Assembly: GCA_014871385.1 (NCBI GenBank)
Contig: CM026426.1
Span: forward strand, 61,108,084 to 61,172,083
DNA: 64,000 nt
Direction: 5' to 3'
Source of the DNA: Ceratodon purpureus
Taxonomy: Eukaryota > Streptophyta > Bryopsida > Pseudoditrichales > Ditrichaceae
The position numbers and the translations under genes are program-made. The stretch's first letter is position 1. Each line of letters starts with the position of its first letter. The notes below the pieces were generated by a model, which did not search any database, was not told the DNA's origin, and saw nothing but the letters and a program-made list of their open reading frames with translations. This document shows positions 1,191 through 22,699 of the stretch, piece after piece.

Positions 1191-1197
1191 GGAAAGT

Positions 1198-1683
1198 TTC
1201 CCGCGGCCGTGGGCCGTCTCCGCGAGGGGCCGACCGCGGGGACGGCCCCTCGACCACGGCCGTGATCGAACGGCCGTTGCAGCCGAGTCAGCCCCAATCG
1301 GACGGCCGCGGGCCGTCTCCGCGGCCGTCCCTCGGCCGTCCCCGCGCGGTCGGCCGCCATCAGACGACGACGGCCGCGGAGACGGCCACGATCGGACGGC
1401 CGCGGAGACCACCACGATCGGACGGCCGCCAGCCGCCCCTTGGGGGGCCGTCTCCGCGGCCGTCCCCTCGGCGATGGCCGCCATCGGACGGCCGTCGCCG
1501 AGGAGACGGCCCGATCAGACGGCCGCGGAGGCACGGACCTCCGCGGCCGTCCCCATGTCCCCCGACTCGACGGCCTCTAACGGTCGTCGTCAGGTTTGGG
1601 ACGACGGCCATTGGCCGCGGCCGTAGGGTCGGGGGCCAACGGCCCTAGGCTCGTGGGGACGGCCGTAGGGTTGGGGGCCGTTG
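1198..1683. repeat. GC-rich tandem array upstream of the element B RING gene
   Basis: Degenerate tandem repeats built on GACGGCCGCGG / CGGCCGTC, about 480 bp, in sharp contrast to the AT-rich DNA on the left. The array ends directly before a TATA-like sequence and the RING gene. A related CGGCCGTCGCC array lies at the other end of element B (8795-9065) and in element C (21650-21850). The long open frames on both strands here are low-complexity Arg/Pro/Gly sequence and not genes. Confidence 0.85.
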
Positions 1684-1693
1684 CCATATATGG
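1684..1693 (+). promoter_or_regulatory. TATA-like / CArG-type palindrome before the element B RING gene
   Basis: CCATATATGG lies at the edge of the GC-rich array and about 250 bp before the first ATG of the RING gene. It can serve as a TATA element and also fits the CC(A/T)6GG CArG consensus bound by MADS proteins. Its position matches the TATA boxes of the other genes in these elements; the CArG reading is inference. Confidence 0.45.
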
Positions 1694-1944
1694 CGATGGC
1701 TGTCTCCTACTTCCTCACTTCACTCTCCTCAATAGTCCCCCTGTGATTGCTACAGTTTTCCAATTTACTTGGGAGCTTGTTGGTACGTGGGGGTGAGGAG
1801 ATGGGGGTCCATTTTTATTGTTGGGGGGGGGGGGGGGGGAAGTTTTTGAATATTGTGTATTCGTTATTTTGTAAACCGTCATTTATCAACTCCTTGTTTT
1901 CTTTAAAACAATACCATAACGTTTTTGTTTAAAACGAGGTTACT

Positions 1945-4900
1945 ATGGCGGATCCGCAACATGATGAGATTGGAGGAACCGGCAAGAAGAACAGGCCGAA
2001 GGGAACGCGCCACAACTTTTCATGGAAGATCCTAGACAACAAAAACATCGTAGCAGAAGAAGGCTGGGAATCTGTGGGGGACATTTACTGGACTTTCAAG
2101 GAGTGCAAGAAGTATGTGAAGATGTATCACATTGATAAGTTAGGGCCCCAAGAACAACACGATTTGAACACACGGAGTTTTACCTGCAAGCCTTGGTCAT
2201 GCATGGATGACCATTCCTTGCATCGAACATATGAGTTCTGAACTACTCTGTTTGGGCAACGTAAGCCTAGCAAAGGCCATTTCAATTATACCATTTGCAG
2301 TATGGTATATGCGGAGCTAATATTGAAGCGGAAGATTAGTTGGTGTACGTATCCCACTACGAAAGACAAGCCGTTGCAAATTGGATGGATGATAAGAGAC
2401 ATTCCGGATTTATATCTGATCGATCCTTTGCAAGCGAAGAAGGTCGTAGCGGAGTTCCGAAAGCGGCAGTGGCCACATCTAAAGAGCTTTCCGAAGAATG
2501 AAGTAAAAAAATTACAGAATGAAACTCCGCATCGTCCAGAGGAAAGGAAGATTGTTGCCATTGCCAATGTGATCGCTACGATGTTCCCCATTGCCACGGT
2601 AACTAATTTCCCTGTTATTCCTAGAGCAGACCTGGGAATCACGGTGAAATCTTCCAACGATACAAAGGGCAAGGCAGCCGTGGATGAGGTGGAAGTTGAG
2701 GTGGACAATGACTGTTCAACACATCTTACGGCTGCGGAAGCTGGATGCTCCAACCCTCGTTCAGTGGACGATGGTCCGAGTTCCTTGGCAATAGTACAAG
2801 TGCCTACCAAAGAGGATAGCACAAAGGATGCAGTTCATTCCATTTTGGAGATTATGGAGCTGGTGAAGTCGATGCCAAACAACGAATCATTGAAGGAGTT
2901 ACTAGATTTTAGCATCAAATGGACGGAGGTGTCCTCTGATGAACAGCGTGGGGGCTTAGAGAATACCACGGAGGGAGACGATGCAGGAAAAACCACGGAG
3001 AAAGTGCAACAAATTCATAATGTGTTGAAGATTGCACACACCCTGAAAGAAGGGGCTTCCGTATTAGGCGCTATGGCACGAGATCTCATAAATATGGCTC
3101 ATGCATTTGGAAGTATCACTCCGGGCATGATACATGGTGCCTTCGGCTTTGAGACTTTGGTATTTTCCATTAAGCCTCTTCTGGAAGACCGTGTGCAATT
3201 AGGCGAAGAGAACGTGGCGCTGAGTAAGGATCTAATGGAGGCAACGCAGATAATCGAGAAATTGACAAATGGGTTGGACAATGTGAAGAAGAGTTGGAGT
3301 GCACAATTGGAAGAGTGCAAGAAGTACCACCCTAAAGATAAGGAGAAAAGCAAAATAGAAGAAGTGAGGCCTAGGGTGAAGAAGGAAGCGGTGAAGGTGG
3401 AAGAAAAGGATCGTGTCATTGAAGTACTGAGCGATGTTGAGGATTCCGATGACCTCGGCCTTTCTATATTCTCAAATAAAAGTGGAGATGGGGCCACACA
3501 GGGGATGGCGTCTCAAAAGTCTAAAAGGACATGTGGTCCTGTTCCATTGGACATTGGCTCTAGCCAAGCAACACCAAGACATGAGGATAGAGGAAAGGGG
3601 CCAATGGATGATTAAAAAGAAGTAGACATTCTTTTACCGGATTTGGAGGTCGCTAGAAGGGAAAGAGACGAGGCCCGTACAGAATTGGAGAAGCTGAAGA
3701 CCACTGTACAGATGGTAGACGATACACCATGTTCCACAAGGGCATTATTGTGGCTTGTTTGAGTCCACAAACTGCGAGATAAGGAGGCAATAGTCTCTAA
3801 AGCACAACAGGATATGAAGAAATGTGCAATTACTTCCATGGATGTCGAAGAAGCTATCCAATCATCTTTACAGAAGTATAACGAGGCAGCAGCCAAGGGC
3901 GGCAAGGATGCTATAAAAATCACGATATGGCGCGCACATTACATAGTTTCAAAAAGAAAGAAGGGGTCATTGACTGGGCGCTAGAGGTCGAGGAGGGGTG
4001 GATGCCGTACGATGTACTATCATCTCATTTGGATGAATCGAAACGTGTGGTTATCCGTACCCGCAAACCGTCGGAGGAATATTCGAAGGAAACGTGTCCC
4101 ATCTGTCAACAATATTTTGGGCCGGTAGGGCCCTTTGGGATGGGGAATTGTAATCACAAGTTCCACATAACCTGCATCGCGAAGGCTGCTTTAAACAACA
4201 AACTGTGTGTTATGTGCCGCTCCCCAATTAGTTCATGCTTTTACGCGATGCTGGGACTACAACACGTAATGCCGCCTGGGCATGAGTTTGATGATTGATC
4301 GGTGGAATTTACCACTAGACCAACTACCTAAGAACGAGGTGAATTATTTTGATTGGGACAAATCACTTGCTTGGAACCCGGAGACAATGACTCACCAACT
4401 ATCTACGGCGGGCAATGCCGGAATGGACGATTTTTCATGGATGACACACGACTATGAGGTGGAGATGAGGGCACGTGAAATTCCGGATGCCAAGGAGCGA
4501 GAATTTTTTTGTAGGAACTTCGGTGGACATTGGAGTGTACATGGCAATCGCTTCTTCCGGTTTCCAAAACCGGAAGTTGTGGTAGATGCCGACGATAAAA
4601 GAAGAGAAGTAGAATGGGACTATGGGCAACTTGATGAGTACAAGATGTATGAGAAAACCCTGGTTGGGAGGGCACTTGTATTGGCCAAACTAGAAGAAAC
4701 CATTCAGCATCATCGCACTATTACAGAGGAATCCTTCAAATATTCAGACCTAGACTACTGGGTGATCATTAAGAAGTCTGACGATGCTTTTCAAAAAATA
4801 GTTTCCGACTTGAGAAGGGCACTTCGTGCGGAGGATAATTCCTCTCGTTGGTCACGCACTAGGATTGAGAAGATTGTGCAAGAAACAGTAGCCAAGATTG

Positions 4901-5100
4901 AAAAGGCAAAGGAGTTGTGGGACGGGAAGAATTCCAAGAAGCGCAATCAGGACGGCCCTTATGAAGATGACCGTGAATGGGGGGAAGATAATCGTCGTTC
5001 GTTGGAACGCGTGGAAGAAGAATATCGATCGGGGGGTACAATTACACATCCAAGCGAGCGACGCCAAACTCGGAGGTCAAATGCAAACAATGAACGTTGA
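1945..5100 (+). pseudogene. RING-H2 coiled-coil protein gene of element B, broken
   Basis: Homolog of the gene at 12018-9637: both share a block starting MVYAE (here at 2302), a RING finger with the following PP(G/S)HE motif, and a C-terminal block containing GHW/GYW. The product would be a candidate E3 ubiquitin ligase, inferred from the RING only. The finger (about 4097-4250) reads CPIC...CNHKFHITC...CVMC, a complete RING-H2 ligand set. A lysine/glutamate-rich, coiled-coil-like region precedes it. The frame is interrupted by TGA at 2239, TAA at 3613, TGA at 3760 and frame changes near 3925 and 4290; between these the frame stays open and matches the paralog. The start at 1945 is the first ATG after the array and TATA-like site. 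It converges with the hAT gene. Confidence 0.75.
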
Positions 5101-5563: not shown

Positions 5564-8500
5564 TCATGCCACATTATCGCTGTCGTCCTTCACTTCGGCC
5601 TCACGAGGACCGGAAGAATCGTATTCCTCATCGCCATCGCTCTCGCGTACCTCCTTCACCCTCGCCTTAGTCTTCTTCTTTGACTCAAATGGGTTCATGA
5701 ATTTCTTTGGGCCATTCGGGTCATCCAAAGGAGTTTTTGGCTTCTCAGGATTAAAAGCCAACACCTTCTGAGTCTTGTCTACAGCCTTTCGCTTGGACAT
5801 GGCTCTAGCAGGGGGTTTTTCAGGAAATATGTCCGGTTTTCCCAAAGCCAACTTCGGTCCAAAGAGATGCTCGATTGGAAGTCCATCATCAGTAGAGAGG
5901 ATGCCCGGGTCCGCTTGTCGGGTTCGGACCAATTTCTTCCTACATTTCTCCGCTACTTCAGCAGCCTTAGCATCTTCCTTCATTTTTTTAGACAACTCAA
6001 TCAACCTCGTGGACGATTCAAACCCACCAACTTGGACCCTAGTCTTTGCGGTTCCAAACAATGTCCGAGACGCACCCGATACGGGTACGGGCACATCCTC
6101 CTTTGTAGTGGGTGGAACCATTTCCTCCTTCAGGCGGTTGAAGTTTGGAGAAACAACTTTAGAAGTATCAAGGGTGGGGTCTTCCTCTTTCTTTGGTACG
6201 ACCAAACCCACGGTAGTATGAGATGATCCTCCCCGTAGAATCTTATCACTGTTTAGTAAACCGTCTCCATTCAGAAAAGTGGCAAGAGGAATCGTATCCT
6301 CCTCGTTGGTACCGTCTTCTTCGACATTATCATACTCGAAAACACGCTCCATCGGCGCAGGAGAACAACGGAATTTCCCTTTCGGTGAAACCTCGAGGTC
6401 GTCGACTGGGTTGTCAATGGGGGGGTCAATTGATAGATCGTTGAAGGGTACATCAACATCAGACTCACTAGAGTAGTCAACGTCCTCGGTTTCCATAGCC
6501 TTCGGATCCTCCTTCCCCTCCAACTCCCCATAGAACCTCCCTAAGGCACTCAATTTGGACTGGGAAATTATCTTGGAATTTGTATACACAAACACGAGGT
6601 CATTAGCCCTTTCCGGAAGTAAACAGTTTCGCTTCCTGTCGTGGACAAAGGAGTAGCTACTCCAATTCCGCTTGCATGAAGTGGAAGACAGGGGTTGAGC
6701 TAAAATCCTTTTTGCAATTGGGGAAATGATTTTACCAGCGGATCCGTATATATCCCACTAACCAGATGGCAGCAATTGTGACTTAGAGGAGTCACGTACA
6801 TCACGAATCGGAGGATAAGCTTCACGAAATGCAAAGAACTCTTCTATGACCACCTCCTTCAGTGTCGGAGGAGCCATCGACAACAAGACCTCCTTCGCCG
6901 ATGCCATCGCATCAGTATCATTGTGAAGGTCCTCATCGTCAATAAGATAAGGGTTTAGAAGCGCAGCAGCCCACTGTAAGGGTGATTTGACCATGGCTTT
7001 ACGCTCATAGAATGAGTCCTTGCAGAAATCAGCATTGTCAAAGTCCAATTTGAAGGGCTCATGGCGTAAGGAGCGAACATGCTTCTCAAGGTTGCGGAGA
7101 ACGACGTAGGCTTTACCCAATGCCGATTCCTTCGCATCAAATTCTCGTAGGGCATATACAACGGGACTCGTCATCCACTTGAAGTTTGCACATTGTTCCC
7201 TGAAAACGTCATCCAAGACAACCCTCTTAACATCGCGTGAGATCTTCGCTTTGTCACGGGCAGATAAGGTCTTCTTTGTTTCGTAGTTTCTCCAGTCAGG
7301 ATCCACAACGCTCTGCTCCAATGCTCCTCGAACCTTCAGTAGACGCGAAATCATAATGTAGTGCGATGCAAACCTAGTCTGACCAAGAATCAGCAAGCTA
7401 AGTTTTGCCTCGTGCTTTCGAAATACCGAGAGTGGCATTTGCCTTATCTTTATGAACTTAAGCAAGTTCTTAGCCCGATCTAGGAGCTCCTTCACCCACT
7501 TCATCTTACTCCAATCCTCCAACAAAAGGTCCATCGCATGGGCAGCACATCCTTGGACAAATATGGATGGATAGAGTGCTTGGACCAACTTTCCGGCATT
7601 ATGCATCATTGGAGCATTATCGTAGCATACTTGAATGATGTTCTGTTCTCCAACTTGCTAGATAAACTTCTCAATGACGGTCGCTACGAAGACGGCATCC
7701 TTCTCTTTCCCACTCGTGTCAACGGCTCCTAAGAATAACTCACCATCGGGACATACAAGCATTGCATTTATTAGAGGGCGACTGCTTACCGAAGTCCATC
7801 CATCCAGGGCCAACGTTCCCTCGTACTTCCTAACACATGAAAAAATCCTATCATTTAAGGAAGTCTCCAAATCAGTCCTTCCTTGGGCTAGTAAATTTGT
7901 TTGGAGATGGTGGAAAGATGGAGGTGTGTATGATCTTCAACACAGCGTCCTTGGAAGAGGCACACTCAGCGAGGTTAAACGAGATAATGTTCTCGTAAAA
8001 ACAAGTGGCCCATGCTTTGTCGCATTCCCGCCTCTCCGTCTCTTCGAAGCCCTCTTGAAGGGTAGATTGCTTCTTTGCCTTCAAAGGAAGAAAATGTCTA
8101 CTACCTTCCCCCGGAAGAGTGGAAATGGAAGGTACACCCTCACCAAATAAAACGTGTTCATTCTTCGGAGTAGAAACCCACGATCCAGCGCATGAGTCCA
8201 CATCCATGGGAGTGTTCACTCTCAGGGATATATTGCCACGAGTCACGGGGGAAGTACTCTGCTCCGACATGAATATTCTGGAGTCGTTGGGGAATTTGCC
8301 ACCGCAATTCTTGAACAAGGACAGTATAGCGGGTGACAAATTAGTGCAACGACCTACTCCACTAGTCCGTACACCTAGAACTTTGTCATAGCCCAGATGA
8401 CTGAGCATCCGCTCAATCCTCTTTGCGAAAGTGTTCTTTGCGAAAGTGTTCTTGAACCATCTCAGTCTTCTTCTTCTCGGCATCGATCATATGAACTTTG

Positions 8501-8628
8501 GTATACCATGGTGAGTAACTTCTAGACGCCATTGTTGCACTTGATAGATCGCCCGGGAAGACTTCAAAAGATCGGGGTACCACGTCCTCAAGAGAACTAG
8601 AGCCTCCGAAGAAGCTCCAATTCAACAC
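5564..8628 (-). pseudogene. hAT transposase of element B, broken
   Basis: Plant hAT-type transposase. A DUF659-like core contains LDGWTSVSSRPLINAML (near 7790), then CYDNAP, the CxxH motif GCAAHAMDLLLEDW (near 7530) and the C-terminal dimerisation block with KRNWSSYSFVH (near 6660). After this, an acidic, lysine-rich tail of about 320 residues follows. Damage: the N-terminal BED finger has lost its first Cys pair next to a 15-bp duplication (8425-8460); frame change near 7880; TAG at 7658; and TAG at about 6756, where a Trp (TGG) is expected before WDIYG. Between the lesions the frame is open. Start: ATG at 8532 (MASRSY), or in frame at 8628. The closest relative in the window is the element C fragment. 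Confidence 0.85.
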
Positions 8629-8736
8629 ACTTTTAAACGCCGACGTTCACCATGCAACAGATACACACGTGTATTAGTGCAACTAGTAGCACATGGAGTA
8701 CAATTCAGAAGTGTAATGCCAACTTCTAGGAGGGGT

Positions 8737-8744
8737 GTTTTATA
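8737..8744 (-). promoter_or_regulatory. TATA box of the element B hAT gene
   Basis: On the - strand the sequence reads TTATAAAA, about 110 bp before the upstream in-frame ATG (8628) and about 50 bp after the GC-rich array. The same position in element C reads GGTATAAAAG (21600-21591). Confidence 0.65.
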
Positions 8745-8794
8745 ATCATCCCATGTAATGCCAAGGGGTGAGCCCTAAAAATCAAGGGAGGACG

Positions 8795-9065
8795 GCTGTC
8801 GAGACCGGAAGTTAAGCGGGGGGCCGTCGGATCATGGGTTGTCACGGCCGTTGAAGGGGCCGTCGCCGGGGACGCCCCCCCCCCCCATTGCGGCGACGGC
8901 AAGGGGCCGTCGCCGAGGACGGTCCCCCCACCGCGGCGACGGCCCGCCTCCACCGTGGCGACGGCAAGGGGCCGTCGCCGGGGACGGCCCGTTCTGAACG
9001 CGGCCGACGCCCGCCCCCCCCTCCGCGGCGACGGCCGCATTCTCCCCCGCAACCCCTTCCCCGCG
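8795..9065. repeat. GC-rich array upstream of the element B hAT gene
   Basis: Tandem degenerate copies of GGCCGTCGCCGNGGACGG with C-runs. It is matched by the array of element C at 21650-21850 and related to the array at the other end of element B. It lies upstream of the TATA box and inside the right terminus, so it may be a promoter, a set of transposase sites, or both. Confidence 0.85.
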
Positions 9066-9076
9066 TTCAAGGTGTG

Positions 9077-9084
9077 GTTTCACC
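9077..9084. repeat. Left target-site duplication of element A (GTTTCACC)
   Basis: GTTTCACC directly precedes the terminus CAGTGTTGTC. An identical octamer follows the right terminus at 20484-20491. Eight-base duplications are typical of hAT insertions. Confidence 0.95.
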
Positions 9085-9182
9085 CAGTGTTGTCTATTCG
9101 GACGGACATGGGCAAAATTTCCGGACATAGACGGACGGACGGACGGACGGATAGGTCGGTCCCCGGACATAATCGGACATTG
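9085..9182 (+). repeat. Left terminal and subterminal repeats of element A
   Basis: Terminal CAGTGTTGTC followed by clustered CGGAC/GGACGG motifs (a run of GGAC tetramers near 9130-9150 and CCGGACAT copies). Such subterminal clusters are binding sites for transposase in known hAT elements (Ac); that role here is inference. Confidence 0.8.
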
Positions 9183-9304
9183 AGAGGAGGAGGAAAATTA
9201 CTAAGTTAGTTTTTTTTTTTTACAACTTACCTATAGGGGAAACATATTGATGACATGGACAACGAACGATGACGGGGAATTCCACATATGCAAAAGGGGT
9301 GCCA

Positions 9305-9382
9305 GCATGTGTAGGGGGCGAGAGCGGGTACAGGGGGGGGGGGGGGGCGCGAGCGAGTTCAGGGGGGGCGCGAGCGGGTTTT
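9305..9382. repeat. Short poly-G / GCGCGAGCGGG array near the left end of element A
   Basis: About three copies of a GCGCGAGCGGGTTCAGGGGGG-type unit with long G-runs. It is the inverted counterpart of the C-rich array at 20036-20262 near the right end. Strong G-quadruplex potential. Confidence 0.8.
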
Positions 9383-9636
9383 TCGTGCAGCCCATTTTGT
9401 AGATAGTAAATTTTTGACAATGCAAAAAAACCTAACATTTTCATCAAAATAATATATTGGGGCTAAGCGCAATGACAAATGTGTAAATTCAGATACTCGT
9501 GAGCCAAAATACATGGACTTTGCAATGTTGTATACATTTATGAAAGTAAAAGCATTTCATTACCAATTCAAATCAAAACATTACAAAAACTGTAGTATAT
9601 GATAACTAGTCACTTAGTACTAAGTTGTAACTATTC

Positions 9637-12018
9637 CTATTCATCTGCATCTACTCCCGCTGTGCCACTTGGTCCCGCTCCATCGTCCAGCGTCAAGCTG
9701 CGCCTGGCTCTCGTCCGTGTCCGCCGGAATGGGCCATCACTTTCACTGAGAGAACGCAGAATTTGCGAGTTCCTCAATTCTCTCAATGTACGCAATGTCT
9801 GTGGAGAGTGTTCCTCCAGAAGAAAGTCAACAGCCTCATGTTTGAAAATTAACTTCCACTCCGAAAGAGACATTTGGACTGCATCTCGGGCGGTCAAAGA
9901 CATGAATTGACATTCGAGGTCTGTAACCAATTTCCCGTCCTTGTCCCATAAGAGGCCTTTTGGGTGATTACCAAGTTGGAACTTCCTATTCTTCGTATCC
10001 CAGTATCCATTCAAAGTCTGATAGAAGAAATTTCAATTCCCTTCGTCCTCCTTCTTTGATCCAATTATCTTCTTTGCCACCCTCACAATCTGATTGGGGT
10101 CATCCTCCCACCCCAACTCGTCACTTACATTGCTCTTGAAGACCGAGTGAGTCTGGGCCCGCCAACTCCAAATCAAATCTTCCCCCCACATGTTGCAGTA
10201 CTCTTCACCTGGTGTGTTTTCGGGATTTCTCTCATGGCTTGGTGGCATGTATGGAGTGAGTCCAAAAACCTCGTACAAGCGTTCATGGAACGCGGATTTG
10301 CACACCGGGCAAAATCTCCTTACCAAAAATATATTAATTAAACACATTGGATAGTACATGTGGGTACATGATCCAACTGCCCATCCACCCTCAGGACCAA
10401 ATGTATTTAGACACACACTACATTGTTTTGAACCATCCATCACCCACGGTTGAGGATTTGGCCAAAGCTTTCTGCTATTAACTCCTTCCTTCATTTGAAG
10501 ATCATGGCACGAAGTTGCGTTCTCCACATCGAAATTCAACTGGGCCCAATCTATGAGTTTAGGATTCGATTCTTGCATTGGCATGTCATCTGGATACATA
10601 TCATCTGCGTTAATCCATGAAGTGAGGCCAAAATTCCTTCGTCTGTTGTGTTGCAAGTACGATTCGTCGATCTTCTTGAACTCTAATGCAATTTGGCGAC
10701 CGCGATCAACGCTGAGAATGGTTGCCACTTTCCACTCGTAGTATGCTTTAGCAAACTTAGAAACAAGGAGCCGCAAATCATTATTGGCTCTAATCAATGT
10801 CTCCACTTCTCCCGTTAGAGCATTGGGTGGAAATGACAAGGAATCTTGACTTAATGGTCCATCGATGTCCACATAGGGTCGCGGGTATGGGGCTGGTGGA
10901 GGCAATATCACTCCAACTCGTCGTCGTTTTGCTGGTGTGGAAATATTCTCCAGCACACCGGCCGTCGCAACATCAACCGTGTTGTTGATGTAAGATTCAT
11001 CCACCAACATTGGATCCTGAACTACAGGTATATCATTGGCTTGAGAAGACTGAGGTCTTTCTCGTTCTTGCAATTGATTGCGCAAATCTGATAGTACTGC
11101 ATCTTTTGCTGCTGATTCCAATCGTAATTTTCGGATGGTCTCTTGTAACTCTGCAATGAAGCCATCCTTTTCTATAACCTGTAATTGCAACTCCCCGACC
11201 TCCTCGGTTTGGTTAGACTGGTCATTTCTAACTACAACCGGCATGCCAAGAACCATTGTAGGTTCAGTTCCGACCACCTCCAAATTAGCTGCCGTATTTG
11301 GATCGTTTTCCACGAAGATGGTGTTCGCATTGTCGTGAGGTTCTATGACGTCCGCTGGATGGTTCATTGGAGGCTCTACAGCCATATTTGCTGGTGCTGC
11401 AATTCTACGTGGCACTCTTTCTCCACGACGACCATCGGAATCAGAATCTGGTTCAGACTCTGTTGTATCAGGCTCCCGCACTTGTGTTTTTTCCTTCATT
11501 TTTTTCCCTAGGCCACCATCTGCGTATTTCCTTTGTTTGGGAATGTCACGCTCTATCGGCGCCCTAACACTCGGCGTGGATTTGATGGTGGACCAATCCA
11601 CCACTTTGTGAAGCACCACCTCAGCATACACCATTCTGCAAATGAACAATGGTACTTCATTGCGTTCGACACAAGATTGCTTGTATAGATGCTGGTAAAC
11701 TTGTATAGAACGTTCAACAAACTCCGCATTCAAGCAATAATAGAGGTTAGCCTTGTCTGAGATCCTGTGTTTTCTGTGCCGATCGTGTGGAAATATTTTT
11801 GTGATGTGGCACCACTCAATGAATTCCTCGCATGTGGAATATTTCCACGGTTCCAGCTCATCTTGCCAACCTCTAAATGCCAACTTTGTCGGGTTGTTCA
11901 ACACATAAAGCCGCTTCTTCATCTTCTTACCACCACGCTTCCGTTCACGATCTCTGATTTTTTTCTTTTCGACCTTGGTGAGTGGCCTTTCCGCCGCCGG
12001 ATCTGGGTTTCCCTCCAT
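9637..12018 (-). pseudogene. RING-like coiled-coil protein gene of element A, one stop
   Basis: A 794-codon frame read from ATG 12018, interrupted only by TGA at 10035-10033. After the stop the frame goes on with GYWDTKNRKF, matching GHWSVHGNRF of the element B paralog, so this is a nonsense mutation and not the true end. Visible parts: a basic N-terminus (KKKIRDRERKRGGKKMKK), a region about 150 residues in containing MVYAEVVLHKVVDW, an acidic/Ser-rich linker, a glutamine-rich coiled-coil stretch, and a RING-like finger near 10440-10300 (CSVC...CTH...MC...CPVC). In the finger the fifth ligand position is Tyr (HMYYPMC) where the element B copy has His (HKFHITC). The role as a ubiquitin ligase is inferred from the finger only. 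Confidence 0.75.
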
Positions 12019-12350
12019 CGTGGTGTACTGGTAAAGTTTTGTGTGTTAAAAAACACACCAACTCCTCAAAACTTCCCCCAATTGATTTTACAATTTTCCT
12101 TTGTGGTTGATTATGGTATTGTAACTATACTTTGTGGCCCACCTAAGTATTCAGCAATAAGCCACCGTGAGGTAGTTTAGGGCCCGAATTCCCGGATGAG
12201 CATACAAAATACGGTTGAACGAGGTACGTGGCGTTGTCAAAATGCTGTAGACCCCACCCAAGTACTCAGCAATACGCCACCGCGAGGTAGTTCAAGGCCT
12301 GAGTGCCAAGGTGGAGCTTAAAAAGTGGGGGGGGGGAGGGCGCCCCCTTC

Positions 12351-12360
12351 ACTTATATAG
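12351..12360 (-). promoter_or_regulatory. TATA box of the element A RING gene
   Basis: The - strand reads CTATATAAGT, three bases from the end of the poly-G array at 12363 and about 335 bp before the ATG at 12018. The same GACTATATAAG core precedes the kinase-like gene at 13730-13740. Confidence 0.7.
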
Positions 12361-12361
12361 T

Positions 12362-12362
<1 letters not shown>

Positions 12363-12393
<31 letters not shown>

Positions 12394-12542
12394 CGCGAGC
12401 GGGGTCAGGGGGGGCACGAGCGGCTTAGGGGGGGGGGCGCGAGCGGGATCAAGGGGGGGGCGCGAGCGGGTTTGGAGGGGGCGCGCGCGGGTTCAGGGGG
12501 AGGTGCGCGAGCGGGTATCGGGGGGGGGCGCGAGAGGGTCCG
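12363..12542. repeat. Poly-G / GCGCGAGCGGG tandem array upstream of the RING gene
   Basis: Begins with a run of about 30 G, then about eight copies of a ~20-bp unit, GCGCGAGCGGG plus GTCAGGGGGGG-like spacer. The unit is the same as at 13540-13728. It lies on the same strand in both arrays, although the two genes they precede point in opposite directions. Confidence 0.9.
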
Positions 12543-13535
12543 GACCTTAAAACAATCTCTCATTTTTCTTAGGAGTAGCATTGAAGAAGGTTGGAAGACA
12601 ATAATAAAAAGAAATGCAATGGATTTTTTCACCATTTCTTTAAAAAATAAAATAAAAAATAAAAAATTACAAAGAGATATTAAAATAAGGAATATTGATT
12701 TGAATAATTTGGCGATGAGATATCAAATTATAGAAAAACAATCATGACTATAATAAGAGACTCGGGATAAAAAGGGATGAATAACATGGGATGAAAGAAG
12801 TTATCAAGATGAATAAATCTCATGATGATTAGAAACTGAGTTATGCCATAACGGAATAATGATCTAATGCACGATGAATAATATAATGTTGACCACAAAA
12901 AAAATAGTACATTAATATTAGAAGAGATGTGGAAAACTAAAAAAGATAAAACATTGGAAGAGATGAAGGGAATAAAATAAAATTAATAGCATGGAGTCGA
13001 AGACAGTTGGATTAGAGTTTAAAAAAATAATCTATATATTTCATTGTACATACGGATCCTACAATGCTCTAACATATAATTAAAAATATAAAAAATCATA
13101 AAAAAGGGGCTTGATGCAATTGGTTTGGCAGATAAACGGAATAAAATTAAATCAAAATCATTGAGTGGAAGAGATGAAGCGATTAAAATTAAAAGAATAG
13201 CATGGTGTGGAAGAGAGTTGGATTAGAGTTTAAAAAAATAATCTATATATTTCATTGTACATACGTATCCTAAAATGCTCTAACATATAATTAAAAATAT
13301 AAAGAATCATTAAGAAGGGGCTCGATGCAATTGGTTTGGCAGATAGACGTTTTAAAATTAAATCAATAGCATGGAGTGGAAGAGAGCTGAATGAGAGGTT
13401 GTGCATGTATAAAATCCCCAGAGTTTCTATTTGTTTTTTTAAGTATTTATTTTATTTTTTTCTCTTAGAAAGTAGTGTAGAGATTTGACTATTTCCAGAA
13501 GAAAAATGGAAAATAAAAAAAGAAGTTGTAAAACA
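12543..13535. other. AT-rich spacer between divergent genes of element A
   Basis: Separates the RING gene and the kinase-like gene. No ORF of interest; it contains the tandem repeats described at 12965-13400. Confidence 0.7.
12965..13400. repeat. Tandem repeat with ~211-bp period in the AT-rich spacer
   Basis: Two near-identical copies: ATTAGAGTTTAAAAAAATAA occurs at 13011 and 13222, followed in both by the TGCAATTGGTTTGGCAGATA block. A third, partial copy of the AGCATGGAGTGGAAGAGAG part is seen at about 13365-13385. Function unknown. Confidence 0.8.
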
Positions 13536-13539
13536 AAAG

Positions 13540-13728
13540 GTGGGGGGGGGCGCGAGCTTGTCGGAAGGGGCGCGAACGGGTGAAGGGGGCGCGGACGGGT
13601 TCAGGGGGGGCGCGAGCGGGTTCAGGGGCGCGAGCGGGTCGGGGGGCGCGAGCGGGTACGAGGGGGGGCGCGAGCGGGTACAGGGGGGCGCGAGCGGGTT
13701 CAGGGGGGGGCGCGAGCGGGTCCGTGGG
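13540..13728. repeat. Poly-G / GCGCGAGCGGG tandem array upstream of the kinase-like gene
   Basis: About nine copies of GCGCGAGCGGGTTCAGGGGGG-type units, ending in GTCCGTGGGGG four bases before a TATA box. G-quadruplex-prone. Confidence 0.9.
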
Positions 13729-13731
13729 GGA

Positions 13732-13739
13732 CTATATAA
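13732..13739 (+). promoter_or_regulatory. TATA box of the element A kinase-like gene
   Basis: CTATATAA directly after the array and about 160 bp before the ATG at 13897, a normal distance for a plant core promoter with a short leader. Confidence 0.75.
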
Positions 13740-13896
13740 GGTGGGGAGAAGCTCTCGCCCCCCCCCACTCCTTTCCACTGCGGCTCCTTGTCCTGACGTG
13801 TGAAAACACGCCTTTCTTGGAACTGCTTATGTGGGAAGTCCTCATTGGGGCGGGGGGGGAAGTTGTTGATTTTTTTTTTCAGGGATTTACTTTGCG

Positions 13897-15477
13897 ATGT
13901 CTTCTAGACAAGGCTCCGGCAAGCGGCCTATCTATGAGGACTTGGATGCTCCAGATGCGGTGGACCCTATGAGTTTCGTAAGACCTCATGGTTCTACTGG
14001 TTCTACTCCTTCATCTAGCTCAAAGGGTAAAAAGAAGAAGAGTATTCCGGCGCATGAGAAGGATGACAGTTATCCACCATTGGAGTATACGCATTTCATC
14101 AGGAAGGTGACCGTCGAGTACTACAGGGCCCGTACCATACGAATGTTGAAGGCAATGTACCTTGATCACGGAGAGAATGGTATCTACAACCTCCAACGTG
14201 ATTTGGAAAGGGAATTTTGGAGCGCATTGGAAGGATCAGAGTTGTACATGGATTGCAAGACGAAGTATTTTCACAGCCCGAAGTGATTGACACAACAAGT
14301 GAGTAGTGCTACGACAAATGTCATTCATGTGTTTGAATCACATGTGAAGAAACCACAAGGCGAAGAATGGAGCAACCAAGACAAAGTGTTTATTCAAAAA
14401 CTGACAACGGTTCAGGAGGCATGTCAGAGATGTTCTAAGGGGAAAACAAAGATTATGCCTTGGAATGAGCAAGCATTGAACTCAGCATTGGAAGCACACA
14501 TGTATGGTGCATTGATATGGATTCCGGTTACGGCCAAAGTTGTGCCATTATCTGGCTTCAATGCCGAGGGGGGGTATGGCAAAGTGCGAAAAGTGCGAAT
14601 AGCCAATATGAAGAAAATTCCAATTCACATAGAATTTGCGGGAAAACTTTCCAAGGCTAAAACTGAAGTGAAGCAGCGAGAGGAACGGGCGATTGAGGCC
14701 ACGGTTAACCCCGTAGAGCATCCGGGTGTGATAAAATTTTGGGCCATTCACTCGAAGACCATGGAAGCTTATACCCTGTGGTGGAATGGAGATTACCTCC
14801 GCAACTTCCTCAAATTAAATGAGAAGGCAAGCGAGGCAACAGATTACAAAGAAATTTTGAAGTCGAGGGATATGCCCATGGAAGAGTGCCAAAGAATTGT
14901 TGCCTATCGAAAGAACCGGGGAATGTTGGCGTGGAGTCTCATCTACGTTATGGACATAGTCCATAAGGCTGAAATCCTCCACAACGACTTAACGCCATCC
15001 AACATTCTACTCCACTTTCCACCTCATGACAAGGATAAAGTATATATTGGTGTGTGCGATTGGGGTATGGCAAGCAGAGTCATTGAGAAGAAGGCCTCCC
15101 CATATGGTGTGATGGACCCCGATGATCTTGTACGAGTAAAGGAGAGGAGGGTAGGAGTTGCACCGGAGTTGTTCTTTTTATATGGCAAGAAAGATGATGA
15201 GGAACGGAATTTGGAGCGCATGAAGAGGATGCATCCATGTACGACGCTATCTGATGCATTTTCGGTAGGCCATTTGGCAAAGACAATATGGAGAGAAGAA
15301 GATTGCCCAGAACTCTTCAAGGATTCAATCTCAAAGATTGTATTCTCATCAAAGTTGGATGGCTTGCTTAACGAAGATCCTACAAAGAGGCTTTCACTTG
15401 CAAAAGTTGTGAATGATTTGATGAGCCCCCCTTACAACTTCCAAGCTCCCAATGGTTGTTTTAGATACACATTGTAG
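13897..15477 (+). pseudogene. Protein-kinase-like gene of element A, one stop
   Basis: A 526-residue frame with a single TGA at 14284-14286. The N-terminal 130 residues are Ser/Lys-rich and unassigned. The remaining ~396 residues hold a kinase fold signature: a Gly-rich loop (AEGGYGKVRKVRI, near 14565), a candidate ATP-binding Lys in FAGKLSK, the catalytic-loop motif HNDLTPSNILL (HRDLKPxN in standard kinases, so Arg and Lys are replaced), DWG in place of DFG, and APELFF for APE. Catalytic Asp, Asn and metal-binding Asp are kept, so activity before the stop arose is plausible. The conserved order of motifs makes a chance match unlikely. I do not recognise the subfamily. It lies between the RING and transposase genes inside element A, with its own array-plus-TATA promoter. 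Confidence 0.8.
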
Positions 15478-15689
15478 TTCCATAGTGAATTACGTTTGGA
15501 ACATTTTGATTGCCTATGTGGCCTTGTTTGCACATTTCTAATATTTTAATAAATCGTTTTTTCGGCGTATACATGCCTTGGTGGAACATGAAATGGTATT
15601 GTTGGTTTTGTAATGGAATGAAAAATTGTTTTTAAAAAAAAAATTAAAAAACTGTATGGCCCATTCACCGGGACTGCCCCTCGTACAAG

Positions 15690-16250
15690 GGTGCCTCCCC
15701 CCCTTTCAGAAGCTCGCGCCCCTCCCCCCCCCCCTCTAGAAGCTCGCGCCCCCCTCCCTTCCAGAAGCTCGCGCCCCCCCTCTGAGAAGCTCGCGCCCCC
15801 CCTTGCAGTAGGTTGCGCCCCCCCCTTGGAGAAGCTCGTGCCCCCCCCCCCCCCCCTGGAGAAGCTCGCGCCCCCCCTGGAGAAGCTCGCCCCCCCCCAT
15901 GGAGGAGCTCGCGCCCCCCCCTGGAGAAGCTCGCGCCCCCCCCCACTTGGAGAAACTCGCGCCCCCCCTGGAGACGCTCGCGCCCCCCCCCCTGGAGAAG
16001 CTCGCGCCCCCCCTCTGAGAAGCTCGCGCCCCCCCTTGCAGTAGGTTGCGCCCCCCCCTTGGAGAAGCTCGTGCCCCCCCCCCCCCCCCCCCTGGAGAAG
16101 CTCGCGCCCCCCCTGGAGAAGCTCGCCCCCCCCCATGGAGGAGCTCGCGCCCCCCCCTGGAGAAGCTCGCGCCCCCCCCCACTTGGAGAAACTCGCGCCC
16201 CCCCTGGAGACGCTCGCGCCCCCCCCCCCTGGAGAAGCTCGCGCCCCCCC
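15690..16250. repeat. C-rich tandem array with higher-order repeat, upstream of the element A hAT gene
   Basis: About 25 copies of a ~20-bp unit, CTCGCGCCCCCCCTGGAGAAG on the + strand; its complement has the same GGGGGGGCGCGAG core as the other arrays of element A. The block from 15780 is repeated from about 16014, giving a higher-order period near 235 bp. The array ends eight bases before a TATA box. All long frames in it are low-complexity artefacts. Confidence 0.9.
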
Positions 16251-16257
16251 TCACGAG

Positions 16258-16263
16258 TATAAA
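16258..16263 (+). promoter_or_regulatory. TATA box of the element A hAT gene
   Basis: TATAAA (in GAGTATAAATGCC) follows the C-rich array and precedes the transposase ATG by about 200 bp. Confidence 0.7.
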
Positions 16264-16461
16264 TGCCACCAACTTAGCCCAAGCCTAATATCATTTGAAA
16301 TCATGGCCTTTAGTCCCGGAACTCCTTGTGGGCTCCTTGCTTGAGACTATGTGCATCACATTGGCCTGTGGTTGATGTCTACACATACCATTTTTTTCTC
16401 ACATGTGTCATACTAACACTTGCAGACAGGAGATCATTGTACTTTTTCAGAGACACGGAGA

Positions 16462-19400
16462 ATGGCAGGTCAACAGCGTCAGTCGATGGCTGAGTGGGCT
16501 CCGTGGTGGACGTTCATTGATAAGGACCATGTTAAATGTGTGTGGTGCAATTTCACCTTTCGTTATAAACGACAAAGAGCTTTCAAGCACTATGGATGGG
16601 GTGAAGGTTCAAGCAAGAGTCATTGTACCAAGGCCCCTGCCGCCGTATTTAGACGCTTTGCCAATTGTGGTAATGTAATACCAAAAAGAATGACACATGC
16701 GGAGATATACGGCACTGATGGTGGTGATGGCGAGGCACACTTGGCACACTTGGCACCATGTTCTAGCCAGTCTATGCCTGCTGAGCAATCTACGGAAGTG
16801 CCTCAGGGAACGGAGGAGGTCCAAGAGGAGAGGATTTCCCAAGTTCAACCGTCTCAGTCATCTCCGCCTATAAGCAGAGGCGATTCATGTACACCAAGAT
16901 CTATGCGGCAACAAAGTTTTACCGAGGCCTATTAGATTGGAAAGCGCAATGATTTAGATGAGAAATGGGAGGCCTTTTTTTACGAAGCAAATGTGCCTTT
17001 CAATGTGGTTAGACATCCATCTTTTATCGCTGCTGTGGAGGCAACATCGAAAGCGGGTTTTGTCTACCGTCCACCAGCATACAACGCAATGCGAACCAAG
17101 CACATCCAGCCAACAAAGCAGCTTCTCAAGATGAAAATAGAGGAGAAAACGAAGCAGTGTATTAGCTTGTACGGGGCAACTATTTGCTCGGATGGATGGG
17201 ACAACGTTGTTCATCGGCCGTTGATGAATGTCATGCTTGTGTGTCCAGCAGGAGATATATTCCTGGGTTCCATTGATACAACGGGGTACAAGAAATCAAA
17301 GGCATACATAGTTGGGAAATTGAAAGAGTACAGCAAAGAAGTTGGACCGCAGAATGTGGTACAGATTTGCTCCGACAATGCTAGTGCGATGTTGGGAGCC
17401 ATAAACCAGGTGGTAGAAGCTTACCCACACATTTACAAGCAAGGTTGTGCAGCATGGACCTCACATCATGGACCTCTTACTAGAAGATTGGGGGAAGGAA
17501 GCAACCTTCAAAGAGCTGATTGTCTTGGCAAAACGCATACCGAATTTTATACGTCGCCGTCATGTCACCATGGCTTTGTTTCGCCAATTCAGCCCGAAGT
17601 TGTCTCTGTTGTTACCAGCGGAGACAAGATTTGGATGCTAGTACTTGATGATTTTTCGATTGCTTCAACTGAGGGAGGCACTAATCCAGGTGGTAGCCCG
17701 TCCGAAATGGGACGAATATGTGGGTACTTTATTCAATCGGTCAAACGGGTATCGTGCTCACGCCTTAGCATGTCAAGTACGGAGTACCATTCTCGATGAG
17801 ACATTTTGGTTACGTTGTGAGGATCTTGTGCATGTTATGAAGCCGGCTGTTGTGACCTTGAAGACATTTGATGGACAAACACCGACAATGGGGAGGGCAT
17901 GGTTGGCCATGAATAATTTGAAGAAGCATGTGTTCCGTCTACGGGTTGATCCTTTTTTCCTAGACCCCGCTATAGCAGGGCGCTTTGAGAAACATTTTAC
18001 GAAGAGATGGAAGATGATGTTGACAGATCTCCATTACGCAGGCGCCATTTTGAATCCCTACATTTTCCCGGAGAGCCACGAGCTATTGACTAACGGTGCT
18101 GCGAAGCGTGCACTCCTGCAAGTGCTAATTCATTTGAGTGAGTCCCTTAAACTAGACCACGATACTGTGTTGTTCGAGCTAACACAGTTTGAGGAACGCA
18201 CCGGTCCATTCAGCCCTGTTGGAGGCCCCAAACATTTGACAGACTAAGATGCTACCTCATCAATGGTGGCAGCGGGTTGGGGGCGATGCGTTACCGTTGA
18301 TAGCAAAGCGCATCCTTTCGTTAACATGCTCGGCATCATCATGTGAGCGAAATTGGAGCATGTATTCCTTTGTTCACAGTAAGGTTCGCAACCGATTGGC
18401 CGTGAAGAAGGCAGAGGACTTGGTGTACATTTACACGAACAGTAAGCTCCTTCGAGAACGACGTGGAGCGGATCCTGTTCTTTGGTACGAGAACCAACCG
18501 TTCTCCGAAGACTCGGATGAAGAAGTTCCAGCCATGTACGATGAAGACGTATGTCATGATGATGGAGATGAAGGATTCCACGACGGACTTGAAGATAATG
18601 AAGGCGATGGTGATGACGGTGGAGTTCATTACACTCCTGCTACTATGGATGATGAGTATCTAGAGTTACCCGTGGACAATGGTGATGGTGACATGCCACG
18701 CACTGAACCCGTTAACCAGCCGAATGGAGTTTTTGACTGGGCAGGATTTGATGAAGAGGGAGCTACTTCGCCTCACCACGTTGTCAATGAAATACAAACT
18801 AGAGGCGAGGTCGCATACGATCGGGCAGACGATGATATTGACGATGAATTTGAAGTCGAAATGACTCACCATCAAAGCGACGATGGTGGCAATAATGATG
18901 ACATTTACCCCGTTCGTAGCGTTTCGAACAATGACAATGAAGGAGGGGGTAACAACATGGGAGAGCAAATTCCAATTCCAGAAGACGTTGAGGGAGGAGA
19001 AGAAGTTGAACAACTCCAGGGCACTCTGCCAGTAAATGTTGAGGAAACAATCAGGTCCGGAGGTTTGGATGAAAGCCCTCCAAGAAATGAACAATCAGAG
19101 ACAGTCATAAATGGACAAGAAGATGAAATTCCTATTGGCCGATTGTTTCAAACACCCTTGCCCCAGAGTACACCTTTAATCGGAGCAGTACTTGCAGGGT
19201 TGGGTCGACCTCCCCCACCTCGTTCAAGCACTTCTACTGGGCATGGTTCATTAACTCCAACACCGAATACAAGCATTCCACTCACTTCTTCTGGACGAAG
19301 TCTACCAGCTGGACCTTCTACGACGCGTCATGGAGTGATACGGTCACGGAAAGGTCCAACAAACGTTCGCCCTTTTTTTTAAGAATATACTGTTGGGACT

Positions 19401-19754
19401 ACCCCGTCTTTACCTGTGGCTGTGAGTAAACGTAGATTAGCCGTAATGAATGTGGACGGAATCACTGATAAGACCAAAAGACGGAAGATCAAAAGAATTG
19501 TGACCACAGTGGTGGATGGTACAATTGACCACGAATTGCGCAACATTCATTCCACGGTGGAGGAGTTTGTGCCTAATCAGGGGGGAGATGGAGATGACGA
19601 GGGGTCGAAATCCTCAGAAGGATATTACTCATCAGAAGATAGCCGTGAAGAAGCACCTGATGATGAAGACATTGTTGTAAGAGTACCATTGGGTATGCCC
19701 GGTACTCGAAGGAATCCAGAGCGGCGCACTGCCAAAAAAAATAAAAAAAAGTAA
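16462..19754 (+). pseudogene. hAT transposase of element A, broken
   Basis: Starts MAGQQRQ at ATG 16462. A BED-type finger (C26, C29, then H43/H54/C55) is followed by the DUF659-like core with FYEANVPFNVVRHPSF, CSDGWDN, RPLMNVMLVCPAG and CSDNASAML. Next come IMDLLLEDWGK, long spacer homology to element B, and the dimerisation block WWQRVGGD...SSCERNWSMYSFVHSKVRNRL (near 18340). An acidic tail of more than 300 residues follows, rich in Asp/Glu and later Pro/Ser, to TAA 19380; an in-frame basic/acidic piece goes on to 19754. Lesions: TAG at 16933, frame change near 17450, TAG at 17640, frame change near 18247. The DGW and DNA acidic residues of the catalytic core are present. Confidence 0.85.
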
Positions 19755-20035
19755 TACATCTATTAGCATATTACATATAGAAGTTATATAGAGAAAGTAT
19801 AATATATATGTCTCCAAAATAATTTTAAAAAAACACAAAAAAAAATAATATATATATATATATATCTAAATTTTATACGTAGATACTTATATGTTAACCT
19901 TAGTCAATGTCCATAAAACATTAGCTAAGGCTATTGAATGTAATTTTGTTTCGACATGAATTGAAACTTCTCTCATTTATGTCACTATGAAAACTTCAGT
20001 CATGTCTTAATTTCCTTCAATGCTTGATTCTTGTT

Positions 20036-20262
20036 CCCCGCTCGCGCCCCACCTTCGCAGGCGCTCGCGCCCCCACCCTAAACCCCTTGCTCGCGCCCCC
20101 CCCCCACCCCCCCCCCCGGGCCATCAAAGGCGCTCGTGCCCCCCCCTTCGCAGGCGCCCGCGCCCCTCCCAGTCGCTCGTGCCCCCTCGCTCGCGCCCCC
20201 CTTCCCAAGACGCTCGTACCCCCCCTCTCATACGCTCGCGCCCCCCTCACTCAAGGTGTTGG
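20036..20262. repeat. C-rich GCTCGCGCCCCCC array near the right end of element A
   Basis: About ten degenerate copies of a GCTCGCGCCCCCC-type unit. It is the inverted counterpart of the array at 9305-9382. No gene start follows before the right terminus, so here it may serve transposition rather than transcription. Some 280 bp of AT-rich DNA without a gene separates it from the hAT gene. Confidence 0.8.
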
Positions 20263-20427
20263 CGCCCTTCCTCTTAGCCACGTCATCCCCCGAGTCAACT
20301 GTATATGTGGAATATTTGGTGACATGTCAGACGCGTGGCATCCTAGGTGGCCAAGGTAACTCCCATTTCACCATTTGGGTGGTCAACCGTAAGTCTTGGT
20401 CAAACGGACCTCCCCTGACCCCTAACG

Positions 20428-20483
20428 GACGGACGAGCGGACCGGACGGACGGACCGGTCCTTTTGTCCCATGAACAACCCTG
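20428..20483 (-). repeat. Right terminal and subterminal repeats of element A
   Basis: Read inward on the - strand: CAGGGTTGTTCATGGGAC, then GGACCGGTCCGTCCGTCC-type repeats that mirror the left subterminal CGGACGG cluster. Confidence 0.85.
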
Positions 20484-20491
20484 GTTTCACC
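20484..20491. repeat. Right target-site duplication of element A (GTTTCACC)
   Basis: Identical to 9077-9084. Joining the flanks across one copy gives the GTTTCACC-ACGG-GGTGAAAC palindrome of element B. Confidence 0.95.
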
Positions 20492-20580: not shown

Positions 20581-20588
20581 CACGCGGG

Positions 20589-21386
20589 AGATACCAGCAT
20601 TGCATTTATCAGAGGGCGACTGCTTATTGAAGTCCATCCATCGAGGGCCAACGTTCCCCTCTACTTCCTAACACTGGAAAAAATCCTATCATTCAAGGAA
20701 GTCTCCAAATCAGTCTTTGCTTGGGTTTGTAAATTTATTCGGAGATGGTGGAAAGATGGAGGTGTGTATGATCTCTTCATGTTGGACGTCTTCAACACCG
20801 CGTCCTTGAAAGAGGCACTCCAAGCCACGTTAAATGAGATATTGTTCTCGTAGAAACATGTGGCCCATGCTTTGTCGCATTCCCGCCTTTGAGTCTCTTT
20901 AAAGCCCTCTTGAAGGGTAGATTGCCTCTTTGCCTTCAATGGAGGAAACAGTCCTCTACCTTCCTCTAGAAGAGTGAAAATGGAAGGTACACCCTCACCC
21001 TATAAGACGGGTTCATTCTTCGGAGTTGAAACCCTAGATCCAGCGCATGAGTCCACATCCATGGGAGTGTTCACTCTCGGGGATATATAGCCACGAGTCA
21101 TGGGGGAAGTACTCTGCTCCGACATGAATATTCTGGAGTCGTTTAGAAATTTGCCACGGCAATTCTTGAACAAGGAGTGTATAGCGGGTGACAAGTTAGT
21201 GCAACAACCTACACCACTAGTTCGTCCCCCTACAACTTTGTCATAGCCCAAATGACTAAGCATCTGCTCAATCTTCTTTGCGTAAGTGTTCTTGCATAGC
21301 ATACATTGAACCATATCAGTCTTCTTCTTCTCCGCATCCATCACATGAACTTCAGTATACCATGGTGGCTAACTTCTAGACGCCAT
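20589..21386 (-). pseudogene. hAT transposase N-terminal part of element C
   Basis: Related to the element B transposase. The BED finger is preserved here (VQCMLCKNTYAKK, then SHLGYD), unlike in B. It reads on through the linker into ATCFYENNISFNV and the start of the DUF659 region, then ends at the junction with element B. A stop follows five residues after the ATG at 21386 (MASRS, TAG), so translation from that start would fail. Confidence 0.75.
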
Positions 21387-21590
21387 TGCTGCACTTGATA
21401 GATCGCTTTGAAAAACTTCAAAAAATCTGGGCAACAAATCCTCAAGACAACTAGAGCCTCCCAAGAAGCACCGATTCAACACACTTTTGAACACCGCTGT
21501 TCACCATGCAACAAATACACACGTATATTAGTGCAACTAGTAGCACATGGAGTACAATTCAGAAGTGTAATGCCGACTTCCAGGAGGGGT

Positions 21591-21600
21591 CTTTTATACC
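21591..21600 (-). promoter_or_regulatory. TATA box of element C
   Basis: The - strand reads GGTATAAAAG, equivalent to the TATA box at 8744-8737 of element B, and lies about 50 bp from the GC array. Confidence 0.65.
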
Positions 21601-21649
21601 CGTCCCAAGAACTGGCAGGGGGTAAGCCCTAAAAATCAAGGGAGGACGG

Positions 21650-21850
21650 CCGTCGCGGCCGTAAGTCAAGCGGAGGGCTTTCGGATCATCGGTCGCAGCA
21701 AGCCCCACCCACGCAGCCGCAGCAAGCCTCCCCTCCGCGGCGACGGCAAGGGGCCGTCGCTGGGGACGGCCCCCCACTCCACGGCGACGACAATGGGCCG
21801 TCGCCGGGGACGCCCCCCCCCCCCCTCCGCGGCGACGGCCGCTCCCTCTC
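21650..21850. repeat. GC-rich array of element C
   Basis: GGCCGTCGCCGGGGACG-type repeats, equivalent to 8795-9065 but shorter and diverged. Confidence 0.8.
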
Positions 21851-21864
21851 CGCGTTCAAGATCT

Positions 21865-21886
21865 GGTTTCACCCCAGGGTGAAACC
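21865..21886. repeat. Subterminal palindrome GGTTTCACC-CCAG-GGTGAAACC
   Basis: Perfect 9-bp arms with a 4-bp loop, about 105 bp inside the right terminus of C. The corresponding palindrome of B is the target of element A, whose duplication is exactly the left arm. It could be a subterminal transposase site; that is inference. Confidence 0.75.
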
Positions 21887-21992
21887 TGTGCGGGTGATTT
21901 TTTTTCTTAAGTCAAAGGACATCCTGGGGCGCTGGCGGACGTCTGCAGACGTCTCGACGTCCCGAGCGTCCCGGACGTTCGTGACAACCGTG

Positions 21993-22699
21993 CTTGCAGC
22001 TGACTCGAGGGAAGACGAAACCCCAAGGCAACGTTCAAATCCAAGAATCTTCATTGCTGCGTGTATCTGCGCTTCCATAGGATTTTTGCTTCGCTCGGTT
22101 TATACACGAGATGATATCAGCTAAGAATTTGGATTGATCAAAAAAGTCAAAAACGCAAACGACAGTGTTAGTTCAATTCAAATACAAGGAAGGATTTTGA
22201 AATGGAGATGATGACTCACCAGTGCGCAGAGGATTTGTTACCTTCCATGTTAGTGCGTTTTTTTACTCATCGCCAGTAAAGAGCACCACGTATGTTTATG
22301 TGTTAAGTACACACTGAGATGATTTCCTTTGGAAATTTTATTAAATTCGGTGCTCCTTTGTATGCAGCACTCTCATGACATGGGGTCGTAGGGTGGGCCA
22401 GGGCTGAAACTCTGGACGTTCTAGCACACAGACTAATGATCAATCTTGCATTAGCAAACCACGACTCTGTACTTGGATACAATCAGAGCTCCTGTAGATT
22501 ATCGATCTAATCTGAATACTGAGCCTCTAACAATTAATGTGTGCATCCACAAATTTTTAAGATAGCCGAAGACTGGCCCATGTTGCGAACCCTTCACAAC
22601 CAACTATGACGAGCTACAATGTACTTTACACAAGTTCACTTCCTGACGGCGGAGAGAATTGTATATTCTCTGTCAAAGACCGCCTACAACCTTCACCAT
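21993..22699. other. Flank right of element C, no gene seen
   Basis: Mixed-composition DNA without a good reading frame. It probably belongs to the 3' side of the CACTA-1 TnpA-like gene. No CACTA terminus was found. Confidence 0.4.

Follow-up and report, generated by a model that had tools for sequence, protein, structure and literature searches.

We describe a family of hAT transposons in the moss Ceratodon purpureus whose complete form, about 12-13 kb in length, carries three genes in a fixed order: a RING-H2 gene read leftward, a protein kinase gene read rightward, and a hAT transposase gene also read rightward. The family is represented by the element E1 in the window, by which we mean the whole 64-kb stretch analysed (C6:61,108,084-61,172,083, where C6 is presumably the V chromosome of C. 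purpureus, to judge from the VG in the protein name KC19_VG232100) of the 362.5-Mb assembly of 151 contigs in which all genome searches were made. E1 is very probably an older, dead member of this high-copy family, whose genes are under selection and which has spread recently. Autonomous plant hAT elements such as Ac carry the transposase as their one gene, and a set of RING, kinase and transposase genes is not known to us from hAT elements. Among the literature matches listed (titles and abstracts), none reports RING and kinase genes in a hAT element, which is a weak negative, as the subscription literature is thinly covered. Coordinates of all the main features are collected in Table 1.

The boundaries of E1 are well defined. 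It starts at 9085 with CAGTGTTGTC and ends at 20483 with GAACAACCCTG, and GTTTCACC flanks it directly on both sides. The terminal inverted repeats (CAGTGTTGTC / CAGGGTTGTT) are identical at 8/10 positions and start with CA, as in the hAT superfamily. The unoccupied site is seen in X', a partial element further along the window, where the region compared (21560-22010) has one GTTTCACC and lacks the insert; because X' holds the site empty with a single GTTTCACC, we read 9085-20483 as a single insertion. An earlier note on this DNA had claimed a hAT transposon here with a perfect 8-bp duplication and with RING-type (-), kinase-like (+) and hAT transposase (+) genes. The ends, the GTTTCACC pair and the empty site bear out the first claim, and the Pfam domains found bear out the second, to which we add that all three frames are broken: the RING gene and the kinase gene have one in-frame stop each, and the transposase gene has several stops plus frame breaks. 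With these lesions, E1 is dead. In the window as a whole, neither an Rfam nor a tRNA scan gave a match.

Each of the three genes belongs to a recognisable protein family. The kinase of E1 matches Pkinase over the Pfam cut-off (E 4.4e-11), and has 106 relatives in the protein database, the best with 96% identity at full length. The catalytic Lys, Glu, HND, Asn and DxG are invariant in the 26 aligned kinases (E1 included), and the structure model (predicted local distance difference test, pLDDT, of 78) finds kinases in all of the best 50 structure matches listed. One relative, P0099, comes from a metagenome bin labelled 'Bacilli bacterium', which may contain stray eukaryotic DNA. The kinase alignment also drew three kinases of bacteria or archaea from GTDB (32-43% over 51-68 residues), which were taken as unrelated. 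The RING domain of E1 scores under the Pfam cut-off for zf-RING_2 (E 2e-4), and is without one zinc ligand that is kept in 16/16 aligned relatives. Eight zinc ligands in RING-H2 spacing are kept in those 16 relatives (two have a Cys replacing one His), zf-RING_2 is matched at E <= 0.01 by 15/17 RING sequences, and the protein database has 23 relatives, the best at 95% identity. The profile matches the RING-H2 ligases RNF24, RNF38 and Arkadia, which share the RING-H2 domain with E1 but match over only about 50 of its 793 residues; outside these, a structure-linked profile search found no known relative of solved structure. The model of the RING protein is poor (pLDDT 54), and fold comparison gave no match. 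In the transposase, both DUF659 (E 1.4e-25) and Dimer_Tnp_hAT (PF05699, E 4.4e-6) are over the Pfam cut-off, and 45 relatives are found in the protein database, including two named Ceratodon purpureus and one Closterium. Residues D234, D295, E612, C319 and H322, which we take to be the hAT catalytic acidic triad and the CxxH motif, are invariant or almost so in 16 relatives. E1 retains SDGW, SDNA and CERNW, and a frame break hits its CxxH. Because key residues are invariant among relatives, the RING protein is a predicted E3 ubiquitin ligase and the kinase is predicted to be active; the transposase presumably moves the element. Viral contigs searched with four alignments (kinases, RING, distant kinases and transposases) yielded no relatives.

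The same three genes recur elsewhere in the genome. We read ten copies with their flanks, hand-picked from the 82 kinase places listed. They come from nine contigs, and in each the kinase is on the + strand. RING, kinase and transposase are present in E1's order in 10/10 copies, none of which has the transposase as its sole gene in the manner of Ac. End pairs were found in nine copies by a script that chose the pair with the fewest duplication mismatches: eight have perfect, mutually different 8-bp duplications, as expected of hAT elements and as in E1, and one has a duplication with one mismatch. The eight copies with perfect duplications measure 11,845-13,356 bp. The tenth copy (contig C8) has its RING gene about 9 kb from the kinase, and its left end lies beyond the fetched sequence. 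Six of the ten have no stop or break in any of the three aligned frames; of the other four, two have a transposase stop, one a split transposase, and one a split RING and transposase. The unit inserts whole, with 8-bp duplications, and in some copies all three frames are uninterrupted. Since the duplications differ from copy to copy, we reject the idea that a host locus multiplied by segmental duplication.

Two separately ranked genome lists, in which E1's own genes do not appear, give the same linkage. The best 82 of 1,423 first-look kinase candidates extend over all 526 residues with 97-99% identity and are spread over 13 contigs, 80 of them without an internal stop. The best 57 of 1,701 RING places have 96-97% identity, 47 without a stop. 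A listed kinase lies within 12 kb of 32/57 listed RING places, and these pairs are head-to-head with 2.0-4.4 kb between the genes in 31 cases, and on the same strand at 6.2 kb in one. The other 25 RING places have no listed kinase nearby, which in lists of best-scoring places is no evidence of absence. What may be an inverted duplicate lies at C11:11139919-11145975, where a pair of the family's RING genes, both interrupted by two in-frame TAG, face one another across 1.3 kb.

All three genes are under purifying selection. Pooled Nei-Gojobori ratios of nonsynonymous to synonymous substitution (dN/dS) are 0.25 for RING (8 copies, 28 pairs), 0.36 for the kinase (10 copies, 45 pairs), and 0.14 for the transposase (6 copies, 15 pairs). 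For these values two RING genes (one split, one aligned from residue 3) were omitted, as were the four transposases with a stop or a split, which may bias the RING and transposase values; finding the copies through the kinase biases the kinase value down. Between E1 and the copies dN/dS is higher (0.42 for RING, 0.46 for the kinase), as expected for a decaying copy. Kinase DNA divergence has a mean of 0.5% among the ten copies (0.2-1.0%) and is 2.3-2.6% from E1, and we therefore conclude that the copies spread recently and that E1 is older.

These results bear on the possibility of a one-off capture, in which a single hAT copy took up two host genes while the rest of the family has a transposase only, as would fit the one-gene Ac and a window with just one element carrying this set. 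The earlier note had named transposase-only copies as the outcome that would undo its proposal of a lineage of such elements, and the ten copies came out the opposite way, with the same set behind different duplications. Together with the 31 linked RING-kinase pairs, the RING gene of the distant element X described below, and the absence of plant-named proteins from the named rows of the 106 kinase matches (in a search that needs shared 5-residue words), this refutes the capture for the E1 family and leaves it hardly tenable overall. The proposed lineage is supported by the same genes and order in the copies, agreement of the ranked searches on linkage, and dN/dS below 1; the note had suggested looking for further full-length copies with intact frames, and six of the ten have three unbroken frames.

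The non-coding stretches of E1 are occupied by arrays of a short motif. Its four such stretches hold 33 GCGCGAGC/GCTCGCGC, of which 13 lie left of the kinase and 20, in the opposite orientation, right of it; there are none in the three genes of E1 and none in the remaining 52.6 kb of the window. First-order Markov shuffles (n=500) have a mean of 0.05 and a maximum of 2 motifs. In the stretches fetched for the ten copies, the kinase without exception separates 240 GCGCGAGC on its left from 264 GCTCGCGC on its right (nine motifs of copy C9 fall outside its ends). Tandem growth makes these counts non-independent, but the switch of orientation at the kinase gene is found in 10/10 copies and in E1; in the ten copies, motif absence was checked for the kinase gene. 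The arrays also matter to a reading in which RING and kinase are cargo serving the host, for example in defence or stress, and the element is a carrier. Both enzyme types are used in plant signalling, but the two additional genes keep a fixed order with the element's motifs around them, and dozens of near-identical copies on 13 contigs resemble the spread of an element, so that we find host cargo improbable.

E1 is nested in another hAT element, X, which resumes behind E1 at 20484-20580 and has its right end, GACAACCCTG, at 20580. X' follows X directly, with 87% identity to it over 1.1 kb and a dN/dS of 0.47 over 253 transposase codons. X has a motif of its own, GGCCGTC/GACGGCC, with six occurrences in X' and three elsewhere in the window in addition to those in Table 1, and with 11 and 8 in GC blocks near -7.0 and -2.0 kb (window numbering). 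A kinase gene lies left of the window, at about -6288 to -4807 (+), with its best match to P0097 (62% identity); the order of genes in E1 had predicted it within about 3 kb of the window, and it was found farther out. It has three in-frame stops and a changed DxG, where P0097 retains DWG. Its position next to X and the motif they share are the grounds on which we assign this kinase to X. A second RING N-terminal region (-2932 to -2396, -), which was unforeseen, lies between this kinase and the window; X seems to have two RING-type genes, this N-terminal part and that at 1945-5100 (+), flanking an AT-rich stretch. X is a distant relative of E1 with its own RING gene. In a transposase tree built from 43/47 rows (the four omitted were short or long-branched), X, P0160 and E1 fall in three clades with full support. 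For P0160 as for the kinase relative P0062, the listing gives a contig of 15,563 bp (10 members); a jitter test puts the odds of such an exact match between long contigs of the two lists at about 1%. As a secondary clue, this hints that the kinase is also present in the third transposase clade. A match of P0056 and P0112 at 2,719 bp was put down to chance, as the contig is too short for both.

The gene order of X is unlike that of E1, with transposase and RING converging, so the block has been rearranged, as might be expected if RING and kinase formed a mobile unit of their own, nested within a hAT element that has a single gene. Yet the nine end-paired copies share one order and one outer duplication pair, the same motif occupies both ends and both spacers of E1, and an end-pattern scan found no second hAT-type end pair inside E1. 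A nested unit is therefore highly unlikely.

Table 1. Positions of E1, its parts, and the surrounding elements X and X' in the window.
Feature	Position	Strand	Remarks
GC block of X, upstream of its RING gene	1191..1944		20 GGCCGTC/GACGGCC
RING gene of X (broken)	1945..5100	+	RING domain near 4090-4220; profile E 5e-21, zf-RING_2 over Pfam cut-off
hAT transposase gene of X (broken)	5564..8532	-	Pfam
GC-rich subterminal stretch of X	8533..9084		7 GGCCGTC/GACGGCC, near the end of X
Left target-site duplication of E1	9077..9084		GTTTCACC; compared with empty site in X'
E1, hAT element	9085..20483	+	11,399 bp; ends CAGTGTTGTC / CAGGGTTGTT, imperfect terminal repeats, 8-bp duplication, empty site in X'
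Left subterminal stretch of E1	9085..9639		2 GCGCGAGC
RING-H2 gene of E1	9640..12018	-	zf-RING_2; 1 in-frame stop, 1 zinc ligand lost
RING/kinase spacer of E1	12019..13896		GC-rich motif blocks around AT-rich stretch (GC 0.27); 11 GCGCGAGC, + orientation
Protein kinase gene of E1	13897..15477	+	Pkinase; 1 in-frame stop
Kinase/transposase spacer of E1	15478..16461		array, 15 GCTCGCGC (reverse orientation)
hAT transposase gene of E1	16462..19757	+	DUF659 and hAT dimerisation region; several stops, frame breaks
Right subterminal stretch of E1	19758..20483		5 GCTCGCGC
Right target-site duplication of E1	20484..20491		GTTTCACC; compared with empty site in X'
X', partial relative of X	20581..21993	-	transposase gene start and one end

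Other features of the region include CACTA-type remains at 37688-39025 (-), 31340-32197 (+) and 28176-29015 (+), with Transposase_21 (tnp2) and DUF4218 by Pfam; for the third of these open reading frames the likeness to tnp2 is by eye only, as it is for tnp2-like open frames left of X (about -19954 to -15240, window numbering). At 61656-62455 an AT-rich unit of 61-63 bp is tandemly repeated about 12.6 times, and a short AAACCCT run at 50449-50478, resembling plant telomere sequence, stands beside CACGGTTGTC, which resembles a hAT end.

Several known systems share traits with the E1 family. Plant hAT elements of the Ac/Tam3 type have the 8-bp duplication, short imperfect terminal repeats, a dimerisation region and subterminal motif arrays in common with it; they are shorter than 5 kb, against about 12-13 kb, and lack the two extra genes and the arrays between genes. 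MuDR (with mudrB) and En/Spm (with tnpA) are likewise autonomous DNA transposons of plants that encode a second protein, but they are not hAT elements, and their helpers are neither kinases nor RING proteins. A parallel in function may exist with the VANDAL elements of Arabidopsis, from the MULE superfamily. These have a helper gene besides the transposase (PMC10398659), VANC, which binds family-specific tandem motifs in non-coding parts, whereupon silent marks are lost, and the motifs differ between related families. E1 likewise has family-specific arrays in its non-coding parts. VANDAL elements are not hAT elements, their VANC is neither a RING protein nor a kinase, and anti-silencing is shown for VANDAL (PMC10398659), whereas for the E1 family it is a hypothesis. 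For mosses, a 2018 survey of plant hAT elements reports none in Physcomitrella (PMC6027215), and a report on Pohlia nutans gives DNA transposons as 23.68% of the assembly (PMC9247546).

We infer that RING and kinase are retained because they are helpful to the element itself. How they might help is less certain. In the mechanism that we propose, at somewhat less than even confidence, ligase and kinase would act in trans, their targets being proteins present at the DNA of the element itself; the motif arrays would be putative docking sites for this action, and the docked enzymes might remove or switch off host silencing, an effect similar to that of VANC, by analogy, but achieved through protein modification. 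Another possibility, to which we give a little less credence, is that the enzymes are directed not at host silencing but at the transposase, whose level, nuclear entry or activity they would control by phosphorylation and ubiquitination. A kinase and a ligase are fitting regulators, and the three genes travel together under purifying selection; alone, however, this leaves the motif blocks beside all three genes unexplained, though the transposase could bind them. Returning to docked enzymes in a wider setting, we suggest tentatively, and with reservations of the same order, that a hAT superclade of mosses, perhaps also of other plants or algae, carried ligase and kinase before its main families split. 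The pair would be a module against silencing or for controlling transposition, docked on arrays that differ between families, and an independent counterpart of VANC by protein modification.

Some observations weigh against the three-gene family as we interpret it. The copy in the window, E1, is disrupted in each of its three genes, and its exact 26-bp left end is found once in the whole genome, because the other copies read begin with CAGGGTTGTC. The ten copies were chosen by hand among places found through the kinase, and the genome lists consist of best-scoring kinase and RING places, so that transposase-only copies fall outside the count. The left end of X was sought over 60 kb and not found, hence the assignment of its kinase by position and motif. 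Finally, any action of the enzymes on silencing or on the transposase is hypothetical.

DNA transposons are mostly viewed as a transposase between two ends. If our interpretation is true, purifying selection maintains a kinase and a ubiquitin ligase in a hAT lineage with dozens of near-identical copies, and such elements bring protein-modifying enzymes with them. The moss system then offers a place to ask what these enzymes modify, whether the transposase, chromatin or silencing factors. For annotation, it is a warning that moss kinases and RING proteins of this kind may be transposon genes.

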